Origin: Halorussus ruber
GTDB taxonomy: Archaea; Halobacteriota; Halobacteria; Halobacteriales; Haladaptataceae
Reading direction: 5' to 3'
DNA length: 64,000 nucleotides
NCBI RefSeq assembly: GCF_004765785.1
Contig: NZ_SBIT01000002.1
Coordinates: 124,001-188,000 of the forward strand
The first letter of the stretch is position 1; each line of letters starts with the position of its first letter. Of the stretch, positions 25,255 through 31,318 are shown in pieces. The notes below the pieces were generated by a model, which did no database searches, was not told the DNA's origin, and saw only the letters and a program-made list of their open reading frames with translations. Made by a program: the position numbers and the translations under genes.

Positions 25255-26637
25255 ATGCTAGACCGGAACTACATCCGCGAGAATCCCGACGAGGTCCGCG
25301 CCGCGCTCGAACAGAAGGGCGTGGCCGACGTGGACTTCGACCGGATTCTCGAACTCGACGAGGAGTGGCGTGACCTGAAGGCCCGCGGCGACGACCTGCG
25401 ACACGAGCGAAACGAAGTCAGCAGCAAAATCGGCGAACTCAAGCAGGAGGGCAAACACGACGAGGCCGACGAGGCCATCGAGCGGTCGCAGGAACTCAAG
25501 GACGAAATCGAGGAGGTCGAAGAGCGAGCGGCCGAGTTGGAAGCAACCCTCGAAGAAGAGATGCTTCGCCTGCCGCAGATTCCCGCCGAGGAGGTCCCGG
25601 TCGGCGACAGCGAGGACGACAACCGAGAGCGCCGACGCGAGGGCTTCGAGGACCTGCGCGAGTTGCCCGAGGAGGTCACACCTCACTACGAACTCGGCGA
25701 GGAACTCGACATCATCGACGAGGCCCGCGCCGCCAAGACCAGCGGGAGCGGGTTCTACTTCCTGAAGGGCGAGGGTGCCCAGCTAGAGTACGCCCTCCTC
25801 CAGTTCATGCTGGAACTCCACCGCGAGCAGGGGTACATCGACCTCTTCCCGCCGGTTCCGGTCAACAGCAAGTCGATGGAGGGCACCGGCCAGTTCCCCA
25901 AGTTTGTGGACGACGCCTACCGACTCGGCGGGTCGAACGACGAACCCTACGACGACGACGACCTCTGGCTCTGTCCGACCGCGGAGGTCCCGGTCACGAA
26001 CATGTACCGCGACGACATCCTGCTGAAAGAGGACCTCCCGCTGAAGCATCAGGCCTACACGCCGAACTTCCGGCGCGAGGCGGGCGAACACGGCACCGAG
26101 ACCCGGGGCATCGTCCGGGTCCACCAGTTCAACAAGGTCGAGATGGTCAACTTCGTGGAACCCGAAAACAGCTACGAGGCCTTCGAGCGGCTCGTGGACG
26201 AGGCCGAGGAGGTCCTGCGCCGCCTCGACTTGCCCTACCGAATCTTGGAGATGTGTACTGCAGACCTCGGGTTCACGCAGGCCAAGAAGTACGACATCGA
26301 GGTCTGGGCCCCCGGCGACGACATGGAAGACGGCCCCGAGGAGGGCGGCCGCTGGCTCGAAGTCTCGTCGGTGTCGAACTTCGAGGACTTCCAGGCCCGG
26401 CGCGCTGGCCTGCGCTACCGGCCCGAGCGCCACGAGTCGGCCGAGTACCTCCACACGCTCAACGGGTCGGGACTGGCCCTGCCTCGCGTGATGGTCGCCA
26501 TCCTCGAATACTACCAGAACGACGACGGCACCGTGACCGTGCCCGAACCCCTCCGGCCCTACATGGGCGGCACGGAGGTCATCGAGGGCCACGAACCGGT
26601 CGGCGAGAGCGCCCTCGGCGCGGGCGAGAAGGAGTAG
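25255..26637 (+). CDS. serS: Serine--tRNA ligase
   Basis: The protein is 460 residues. An N-terminal coiled-coil arm (about 30-105, heptads of Glu, Lys and Leu such as SSKIGELKQEGKHDEADEAI) binds tRNA-Ser. The class II core follows: GTGQFPKF (motif 1 region), NFRREAGEHGTETRGIVRVHQFNKVE (motif 2, with flipping loop; quoted in part) and GSGLALPRVMVAILEYYQ (motif 3, with the terminal Arg). This is the bacterial-type SerRS found in haloarchaea, not the rare methanogen form. The ATG at 25255 begins MLDRNYIRENPDEVR, matching the family start. Confidence 0.96.
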   Translation: MLDRNYIRENPDEVRAALEQKGVADVDFDRILELDEEWRDLKARGDDLRHERNEVSSKIGELKQEGKHDEADEAIERSQELKDEIEEVEERAAELEATLEEEMLRLPQIPAEEVPVGDSEDDNRERRREGFEDLRELPEEVTPHYELGEELDIIDEARAAKTSGSGFYFLKGEGAQLEYALLQFMLELHREQGYIDLFPPVPVNSKSMEGTGQFPKFVDDAYRLGGSNDEPYDDDDLWLCPTAEVPVTNMYRDDILLKEDLPLKHQAYTPNFRREAGEHGTETRGIVRVHQFNKVEMVNFVEPENSYEAFERLVDEAEEVLRRLDLPYRILEMCTADLGFTQAKKYDIEVWAPGDDMEDGPEEGGRWLEVSSVSNFEDFQARRAGLRYRPERHESAEYLHTLNGSGLALPRVMVAILEYYQNDDGTVTVPEPLRPYMGGTEVIEGHEPVGESALGAGEKE

Positions 26638-29422: not shown

Positions 29423-29791
29423 TTAGCGCGTGTAGGTCCGGATTCGACCGATTTTCGCTTCTCCACCTTCGACCGAATTTTCGAAGTCGAACACGTCTAC
29501 GAACTCGAACATCGGGTTCCCGTCTGCGCCCCGCAGTCGCCCTTCTATCGCCACCCCGTCGCTATCTCCGAAGACGGACCGGACCTCGTGGGAGGTGTCC
29601 TTGTCGGGCCGGTCGTCGCGCATGAACCCGACCAGCGTGTCCCGGCCCTCGATGGTCCGGTCGGGGCGCTCGTGGACGACGTCCGGCGCGAGGAGGTCCG
29701 CGAACCGGTCGTAGTCGCCCGCGTCGATGGCGTCGTAGTAGGCCAGCGCGACGGTCTCGGCGTCCACCGGCGCGTCGTCGGTCTCGCTCAT
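29423..29791 (-). CDS. SnoaL/NTF2-like protein
   Basis: The protein is 122 residues from the ATG at 29791. It has AETVALAYYDAIDAGDYDRF and LLAPDVVHERPDRTIEGRD, the start of the SnoaL/NTF2-like cone fold, and FEFVDVFDFENSVEGG near the end. Such proteins are small hydrolase- or isomerase-like enzymes or ligand binders; the substrate is unknown. The longer frame to 30040 is Arg-rich and runs into the repeat region. It converges with the flavoprotein gene, leaving 10 nt. Confidence 0.8.
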   Translation of the reverse strand: MSETDDAPVDAETVALAYYDAIDAGDYDRFADLLAPDVVHERPDRTIEGRDTLVGFMRDDRPDKDTSHEVRSVFGDSDGVAIEGRLRGADGNPMFEFVDVFDFENSVEGGEAKIGRIRTYTR

Positions 29792-29931
29792 GATCGAAGC
29801 GAGGGGCCGCGGCCACTCGAAGGCTATGGTGGTCGAAGCGGACAACCAGCGCCGGTATCGCTCGGCCGAACAACCACCAATGCGCTCGGCCGAATCAGCC
29901 ACCGGTACCACTCGGCCGCGCAACCGAATCC

Positions 29932-30118
29932 TGGCGTCTGCGCGAGTGAAGCGAGCGCAGGTTCGGAGGACGCGGTTTGTCCTCCGGCGGACTGAAAGGG
30001 CGAGCACGGTTCCGTTCACCTCGGTCACCTGCGCAGGCAACTATTCGACGCGCGCAGGTCTGCACGCGTCGAATAGCCTGCGTCAGCGACCGCGAACCGC
30101 GAGAGGGCTTTCGAGGAC
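29932..30118 (+). repeat. Family A element, long copy A3
   Basis: The 5' module (TCTGCGCGAGTGAAGCGAG, then GGAGGACGCGGTTTGTCC) is shared with A4. The conserved 5' box GGCGGACTGAAAGGGCGA follows, then a large hairpin (ctattcgacgcg paired with cgcgtcgaatag) and the 3' boxes GCGACCGCGAACCGCGAG and GGGCTTTCGAG. It occupies the gap between the SnoaL-like gene and priL. Bases 29792-29931 show no coding signal. Confidence 0.78.
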
Positions 30119-30250
30119 GTTGCTGTCCCGTTTGCTCCCATCGCCTCTAATTCAAGAATCTCCGAAGCCCCGACGCCGAATCCTACTCAGGCTATTACTC
30201 CGCGCAAAGGGACCGTCGCGTTTATCCGCGCCGGTCGAAATTGAGCGAGT

Positions 30251-31318
30251 ATGGACCCGTTTCACGCGAACTATCCGTTTCTTGACGCCTCTCAGGAAGT
30301 AGTCCGAGAGGCAGATATTGGTCCTGCCGAAGCAATTAGAGCAGACGAAACGGATGAGACACGCCACCCTGCGGTCGAGCGTGGTGTTCAGCGTGTTGAA
30401 CGTGCTTTACTCGAAGGGACCGTAGATATTCCAGAAGGCCAACGCCATCCGGGGGTCCGGATTGAACTCTTGTCCTATCCTGTTGCACGGATTCTCGTTT
30501 CTCTTCTTGACGAACCAGGTGTAATTGACAAATACACGAATGCTGAAGCAGAAACAGCCTACAAACGGTTCACGGAGGACTTTGACGTTTTAGACGACAA
30601 GAAACGATTACCCGAGAATGGAAAGGTTCCCCTCCAATATTTCCTTCATGAATTTGGCCTCGCAAGCCAAGTTGAACAGTATCAGTCAGGCTTCTTAATC
30701 GCGGTTACTCACTATCTCAGGTTATCATCAAATCTCGAAGGTAAATCGTGGACACTCGCAACAAGACAACTCAGAGATGGGAAAGTAACGATATCTAGGG
30801 AGGAATTGTACGAACTGCTTCAAGAGGCAATACGCCAGCGTATCAGCGATGGCTTACCTCCGGAACAAATACCTGAGGAAATCAAAGAGAGTCTAAGTGA
30901 CGAAATAAGCGAAATAAAGGATGAAATTTCTGAAATAGACATCCAAACCAATATTGATGTCATTGCTCCGGATTGCTTCCCCCCTTGTATTACCTCGCTG
31001 GTAGAACAGGCGCAGGACGGTGCGACGCTTACAAATACCGAAGAGTTCACGCTTGTATCGTTTTTTGCTAGTCTAAATTCGGATACCGATGAACTACAGG
31101 ATTTTTGCGGTGCAAATACTGATACTAGCAGAGTAGAATATATCCGCGACGAGTCGGGTGCCCAGTACGCCCCGCCCTCCTGCGAGACGATGGCGGCCTA
31201 CGGCGAGTGCCCGGTCGCCGACGAGGAGGACCCGACCGTAGACGCCCGCTGTGACTCGATTTCCCACCCGCTGGCTTACTACGAGGACGCGCTGGACGAC
31301 GCGGGACAGAGAAATTAG
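30251..31318 (+). CDS. priL: DNA primase large subunit PriL (iron-sulfur)
   Basis: The protein is 355 residues, the usual archaeal length. It has the N-terminal helical domain (PFHANYPFLDASQEVV, HPAVERGVQRVERALLEG) and a C-terminal Fe-S domain with cysteines 242, 246, 286, 311, 320 and 334. Four of these (in PPCI, FCG, SCETM and GEC) should hold the 4Fe-4S cluster needed for primer synthesis with PriS. Codons 1 to about 300 are much richer in A/T, with atypical codons (aga, ata, tta), than codons 301-355, which show normal haloarchaeal bias. This suggests replacement of most of the gene by a foreign allele. The start is supported by a TATA-like gtttatcc about 28-34 nt upstream. Confidence 0.9.
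   Translation: MDPFHANYPFLDASQEVVREADIGPAEAIRADETDETRHPAVERGVQRVERALLEGTVDIPEGQRHPGVRIELLSYPVARILVSLLDEPGVIDKYTNAEAETAYKRFTEDFDVLDDKKRLPENGKVPLQYFLHEFGLASQVEQYQSGFLIAVTHYLRLSSNLEGKSWTLATRQLRDGKVTISREELYELLQEAIRQRISDGLPPEQIPEEIKESLSDEISEIKDEISEIDIQTNIDVIAPDCFPPCITSLVEQAQDGATLTNTEEFTLVSFFASLNSDTDELQDFCGANTDTSRVEYIRDESGAQYAPPSCETMAAYGECPVADEEDPTVDARCDSISHPLAYYEDALDDAGQRN

Follow-up and report, generated by a model that had tools for sequence, protein, structure and literature searches.

Within the 64,000-nucleotide stretch of the Halorussus ruber genome analysed here (contig NZ_SBIT01000002.1, positions 124,001 to 188,000; hereafter the window), the gene of the DNA primase large subunit, priL, raises the question of how one conserved reading frame came to be AT-rich over most of its length and GC-rich at its 3' end. 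A first-pass annotation had attributed this to the replacement of most of the gene by a low-GC allele, perhaps from a virus or from a low-GC, Haloquadratum-like haloarchaeon. Genes of the core replisome are generally held to be refractory to horizontal replacement, since their products must fit together.

The compositional mosaic of priL

The encoded protein belongs to the family PF04104 (DNA_primase_lrg; 1.2e-20, 74.4 bits for a cut-off of 22.4) and matches NCBIfam NF002590 over nearly its full length (5e-97, 325 bits), under the curated haloarchaeal equivalog cut-off of 459, which we attribute to divergence of this PriL rather than to a different family. It is the single orthologue in the genome, where no second copy or paralogue was found, and its locus is conserved in Halorussus. 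The flanking genes, most of them at roughly 70-91% protein identity, place the host with its own group of the genus, subclade A (G012, G013, G014, G017, G020, G023, G024, and G026), the other group considered here being subclade B (G015, G019, G021, G022, and G027); relatives in the genus include Halorussus pelagicus and H. vallis. Elsewhere in the window, serS (25255-26637) is 88-90% identical to its counterparts in G022, G019, and G011 vs 80-81% to those of the host's subclade A, and is probably another swapped allele, of normal composition. The features of the priL locus are as follows:

29423..30040, - strand: neighbour ORF 5' of priL, high GC, locus-conserved in Halorussus (synteny)
30214..30250, + strand: the 37 nt before the priL start codon, conserved in Halorussus (blastn alignments)
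30251..31318, + strand: priL, DNA primase large subunit, 355 aa, intact (PF04104, NCBIfam, synteny)
30251..30691, + strand: residues 1-147, within the PriS-docking N-terminal domain, grouping with subclade B (node support 100)
30272..31141, + strand: AT-rich block, codons 8-297, GC3 0.40 vs 0.86 elsewhere in the gene (change-point likelihood)
30692..31141, + strand: residues 148-297, AT-rich, including C246, grouping weakly with subclade A (tree, branch 0.63)
30986..30988, + strand: codon of C246, the first Fe-S cysteine, inside the AT-rich block (invariant column)
31138..31147, + strand: 3' junction, codons 296-299, immediately 5' of the conserved DESGAQYAPPSC motif (change-point range, junction DNA vs relatives)
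31142..31318, + strand: GC-rich native 3' end, residues 298-355, GC3 about 0.85, holding C311, C320, and C334
31700..31927, - strand: neighbour ORF 3' of priL, high GC, locus-conserved, 72-77% identical to subclade A (synteny)

As a whole, priL has a GC content of 0.50 and a GC3 of 0.48, when neighbouring genes range from 0.81 to 0.91 in GC3, which puts it at about the 2nd percentile among some 1690 ORFs (2% lying at 0.49). Low-GC stretches of 300 nt are not unusual in this genome, about 5% of such windows being below 0.51, and the rarity here lies in a sharp AT-rich block within a conserved gene rather than in low GC per se. A two-change-point likelihood model places the start of the block at codon 8 and its end at codon 297 (2-logL ranges of codons 3-14 and 296-299), with a log-likelihood ratio (LLR) of 24.9, where 60 shuffles did not exceed 8.3. 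The first-pass reading of about 900 A/T-rich nucleotides followed by an abrupt switch to high GC near 31150 is thus borne out. It had also stated that the protein stays in frame and keeps its Fe-S cysteines, and indeed C246, C311, C320, and C334 occupy invariant columns across 19 PriLs. The AT-rich part encodes the first of these and the GC-rich part the remaining three, which places the 3' junction within the Fe-S domain. At the 5' end, where DNA alignments to most relatives begin at 30214, the junction is close to the start codon.

Separate phylogenies of the parts of priL, a check set beforehand, yielded trees that differ between segments. With subclade A, residues 298-355 share 81-94% identity, and they sit on a short branch (0.08), their placement within that subclade being poorly supported because the segment is short. 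For residues 1-297, the identity to subclade A is no more than 53-57%. Synonymous differences from this subclade, counted at codons for the same residue, are 0.11-0.22 in residues 298-355 and 0.59-0.69 in residues 1-297, and the synonymous jump at the junction is from 0.11-0.28 to 0.58-0.73. Residues 1-147, on a long branch of 0.36, are 70% identical to G021 of subclade B vs about 55% to subclade A. As the remainder of the block, residues 148-297, goes weakly with subclade A, the AT-rich part is itself probably composite. The tree conflict, the synonymous jump, and the sharp change points together support the view that a low-GC allele replaced most of priL.

Blocks of the same type in PriS and MCM

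What is new here is that priL is not alone: the PriS and MCM genes of the same genome carry blocks of the same type. PriS, on another contig than priL (G000:C1:286994-288151, G000 being the host), is GC-rich except for codons 176-281, where GC3 is 0.37 vs 0.88 elsewhere in the gene (LLR 49). Protein identity reaches 94% and 90% in the flanks, has a median of 50% in the block, and is back to 79-90% (subclade A) in the 3' flank; in a control pair within subclade A, the block region is the best conserved part of the protein, at 93%. In phylogenies, the PriS block pairs with G016 as its sister (support 99), with a branch length of 0.69, when its flanks go with subclade A. MCM, on the same contig as the window but outside it (G000:C2:326495-330163), carries an intein, and its last 60 codons are AT-rich (GC3 0.28 vs 0.93 elsewhere, LLR 54). 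By comparison with Haloferax, in whose MCM the C-terminal winged-helix domain spans residues 633-702 (PMC3972481), this block is most of that domain. Identity to relatives goes from 93% before the block to a median of 52% inside it, when the winged helix, conserved across the family, has a median of 85% and a minimum of 74% among the others. Across 293 genomes of the order, no sequence matches the MCM block at more than 60% identity, the top matches being G025 (60%) and G023 (58%).

In the three genes, shuffles give change points with LLRs of at most 8.5. Synonymous differences from subclade A are 0.11-0.34 in the flanks and 0.59-0.82 in the blocks, and the branch of the host measures 0.36-0.70 in the blocks vs 0.01-0.08 outside, when the DNA past the PriS 3' junction and ahead of the MCM junction is near-identical to that of the host's relatives. 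Even at residues conserved throughout the genus, GC-ending codons account for only 36/86 in the PriL block, 8/26 in that of PriS, and 10/28 in that of MCM, as compared with about 90% outside, which speaks against an origin through selected amino-acid changes alone. The enrichment in ATA, AGA, and TTA codons, singled out at first pass for priL, holds for the pooled blocks of the three genes relative to high-GC genes (0.23/0.04, 0.17/0.03, and 0.17/0.01, respectively), and pooled block codon usage is similar to that of AT-rich accessory genes of the same genome.

Native sequence is retained at the catalytic motifs of PriS and in the AAA+ core of MCM. The PriS block is the helical domain between those motifs, and the winged helix of MCM serves as an accessory domain at its C-terminus; as judged by homology, the replaced parts are therefore mainly docking or accessory domains. 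In Pyrococcus, residues 1-210 of PriL are enough to form a complex with PriS, and the winged helix of RPA touches PriS at R105, K239, E240, E244, and R317 (PMC11686378); Pyrococcus residues 239-244 align in the PriS block region, in an approximate alignment whose numbering may be tag-offset. Across the genus, we saw no co-variation by eye between PriL type and PriS type.

The same block test was run on 2.05 Mb, about half of the genome, comprising 1567 ORFs of at least 120 aa, among which replication genes such as PolB, DP1, RPA, and Orc1 were not encountered. It flagged 67 ORFs, most of which owe their signal to N-terminal extensions that do not look coding, judged as miscalled by composition and low Asp+Glu content alone. 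Judged by position and Asp+Glu content, the convincing blocks were those of PriL, PriS, and MCM, a PolC tract, a ribonucleotide reductase mini-intein, and those of a CHAT-like family (four or five members). Setting aside inteins, intein scars, this family, and miscalled starts, PriL, PriS, and MCM are the only conserved single-copy genes with such a block left in the 2.05 Mb. Given a crude gene caller and a sorting made partly by eye, this is a strong impression rather than a formal enrichment test, and PriL, as the starting point, cannot count as independent evidence for enrichment.

Two of these candidates were rejected as further cases. PolC (G000:C3:387773-391375, - strand), considered as a fourth replisome case, was set apart as a probable intein scar: its codons 935-979 form a 45-codon, 134-nt AT-rich tract round an empty intein site (AAKRRN/CDGDED), the DNA of which is about 80% identical to full-length tracts in other families and 87-90% identical to those of three Halorussus genomes, when in many other genomes the DNA match ends at the intein insertion point. 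The tract is thus probably what intein homing followed by loss left behind, and has a different origin from the primosome blocks. The ribonucleotide reductase gene (G000:C1:88428-92093) holds an AT-rich mini-intein of about 180 aa. As to the CHAT-like paralogues (so assigned by eye), they are proteins of ~700-800 aa with GC-rich N-terminal parts and an AT-rich C-terminal part of ~110 aa:

G000:C1:235048-237126, CHAT-like paralogue
G000:C1:241464-243638, CHAT-like paralogue
G000:C1:355057-357177, CHAT-like paralogue
G000:C4:259772-262177, CHAT-like paralogue
G000:C20:2635-4785, CHAT-like paralogue

Among relatives (30 PriL, 27 PriS, and 29 MCM genes scanned), the sole other strong block is that of G021 priL (L002 1501-2571), at codons 3-185 (GC3 0.62 vs 0.96, LLR 35), in a PriL that is a subclade A/B mosaic with an N-terminus of subclade B type; weaker C-terminal blocks are present in some relatives' PriS genes (LLR 12-17). 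A PriL mosaic with an altered N-terminal part thus occurs in at least two Halorussus species. Separately, the priL genes of G018 and G015 (L026, L004) have linker insertions near residue 145, a tandem GDTAGRG-like repeat in G018, and that of the Haladaptatus G008 (L027/L029) appears split over two reading frames by a frameshift or a sequencing error.

Candidate sources of the AT-rich DNA

That the blocks arose by recombinational replacement is, taken by itself, a conclusion we hold with high confidence. Under this explanation, AT-rich and strongly diverged DNA would have been joined to the resident priL by homologous recombination or gene conversion, with one end of the tract near the start codon, the other at the conserved motif of the Fe-S domain, and the frame kept; the same type of event would have affected the PriS helical domain and the MCM winged helix. 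The run of the PriS and MCM junctions into near-identical host DNA is expected if strand exchange ended in conserved motifs. The donor DNA would have long resided in an AT-rich, fast-evolving context, most likely the Halorussus mobile pool, that is, plasmids and proviruses with copies of primosome domains taken from Halorussus itself. The account as a whole, in which recombination at conserved motifs imported AT-rich, fast-evolved primosome domains, probably from this pool, is put forward tentatively, with a chance just short of even. A single donor for the three blocks would be a further step, against which counts the fact that their nearest relatives differ (subclade B for PriL 1-147, weakly subclade A for 148-297, G016 for PriS, none resolved for MCM). 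A selective reason shared by PriL, PriS, and MCM, such as a need for interacting partners to stay matched or an escape from mimicking elements, would be another such step.

Searches for the donor bear on both sources proposed at first pass. A Haloquadratum-like or otherwise distant cellular donor finds no backing, the best PriL matches in 392 Halobacteriales genomes (Haloquadratum not necessarily among them) all being Halorussus, at 53-65%, with others at 49% or less; likewise, the PriS block does not exceed 47% outside Halorussus. As for a virus, no donor closely matching the blocks was found in these genomes or in the phage, plasmid, and IMG/VR collections, nor, in the latter three, any AT-rich mobile homologue closer to a block than cellular genes are, nor a comparable AT-rich PriS/PriL pair on mobile elements. 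At the thresholds used, phage and plasmid records yielded only a priS on one Natrinema megaplasmid and short PriL/PriS fragments, and scans of IMG/VR with PriL, PriS, and the MCM block yielded one match only. The latter keeps part of the viral proposal alive: contig IMGVR_UViG_3300046025_000059 (L245:3494-4762) encodes a PriL N-terminal domain fused to DUF7474, without the Fe-S domain, possibly a primase-hijacking mimic. As this protein is GC-rich and was found once (31% identity), it indicates that modules travel rather than proving it to be the donor. Small plasmid proteins with an MCM-like winged helix were also found in Haladaptatus pallidirubidus (L246:3842-4207) and on Haloarcula taiwanensis pNYT2 (L247:3605-4138), the gene of the latter lying close to Cdc6, and a Halorussus plasmid carries full and truncated MCMs. 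The presence on mobile elements of MCM copies, stand-alone winged-helix proteins, and a PriL N-terminal domain protein is counted in favor of a mobile-pool donor, with the AT-richer plasmid MCM of H. pelagicus being, at 41-47%, not especially close to the MCM block.

The main rival holds that the donor was a low-GC cellular lineage, within Halorussus or close to it, that escaped sampling, and that relatives recombined in the ordinary way, primosome genes being hit by chance or through a need for co-adaptation. The nearest relatives of the PriL and PriS blocks do lie inside the genus, where serS and the G021 PriL testify to exchange. Against this, an MCM block at no more than 60% over 293 genomes is more diverged than one would expect if it came from a related cell living freely, the genus and family sample contains no genome with this composition, and random import should strike other genes, none of which was found in the 2.05 Mb; we consider this reading unlikely, albeit the best placed of the alternatives.

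More doubtful is an adaptive module swap, selected as a resistance to hijacking of the replisome by elements that mimic or dock on these domains. It would give a further ground on which the new domains were kept, and it overlaps with the import account; because it leaves the source of the AT-rich DNA unexplained, a recombination step is needed too. The viral N-terminal domain protein, the plasmid winged-helix proteins (one of them near Cdc6), the altered PriL N-terminal domain of G021, and the Pyrococcus RPA contacts aligning to the PriS helical domain (PMC11686378) all speak for it, but the case is one of sequence comparison and the viral mimic was found once only. More speculatively still in its content, and with a similarly low chance of being right, the PriL N-terminal, PriS helical, and MCM winged-helix domains could be interaction modules traded between host replisomes and the AT-rich elements that mimic them, this strain having swapped all three together and so altered which elements can hijack its replisome.

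Change in place, through local hypermutation or lost constraint, is improbable. Long branches and AT enrichment do coincide, and the MCM block is marginally closest to Halorussus, as such drift would have it; yet synonymous saturation would have to extend over 60-290 codons beside adjacent codons left almost unchanged in the same near-identical gene flanks, block edges are confined to a few codons, and PriL 1-147 and the PriS block regroup phylogenetically. Assembly error or contamination, conceivable in a draft of 31 contigs with an estimated contamination of 4.3%, is scarcely credible given that the junctions are in frame and lie at domain edges in each of the three single-copy genes, which sit on two contigs and keep their active residues.

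Known modes of exchange and the biology of the primosome

Exchange between diverged homologues has a precedent in polyploid haloarchaea: in Haloferax volcanii, gene conversion between homologues, even across species, proceeds efficiently and can carry an introduced allele to fixation in every genome copy (PMC8223754). However, the conversion tracts obtained there were long and took in whole ORFs, with no chimeric genes observed (PMC8223754), when the tracts described here measure 180-870 nt and end inside genes, at or near domain edges; this counts against the recombination account. Intein homing with co-conversion of flanking exons, as for the haloarchaeal PolC, MCM, and ribonucleotide reductase inteins, also leaves sharp-edged AT-rich DNA in conserved replication genes and fits the PolC tract of this genome, but the PriL, PriS, and MCM winged-helix blocks have no intein and show high amino-acid divergence. 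The MCM copies and fragments of mobile elements (plasmids of Halorussus pelagicus, H. vallis, and others) are diverged and, in the two compared, AT-richer, in agreement with the donor model, although none closely matches the block of the chromosomal MCM. Finally, allele exchange within Halorussus offers subclade swaps of a like kind in serS and in the N-terminus of G021 PriL; the primosome blocks differ from serS, whose composition is normal, in being AT-rich and more diverged than sampled Halorussus alleles.

Overall, AT-rich blocks shared by unlinked genes of physically associated proteins suggest that recombination with diverged, probably mobile, DNA exchanged their interaction domains. In one strain, three genes whose products act in one complex, spread over two contigs, have diverged, sharp-ended domains of matching composition. 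If the import model is true, this would be a natural experiment on how far primase and helicase tolerate the replacement of domains, and would draw attention to proteins of viruses and plasmids that reproduce these domains. Trees built from PriL, PriS, or MCM alone are also to be read with caution in haloarchaea, as the gene can be a mosaic.
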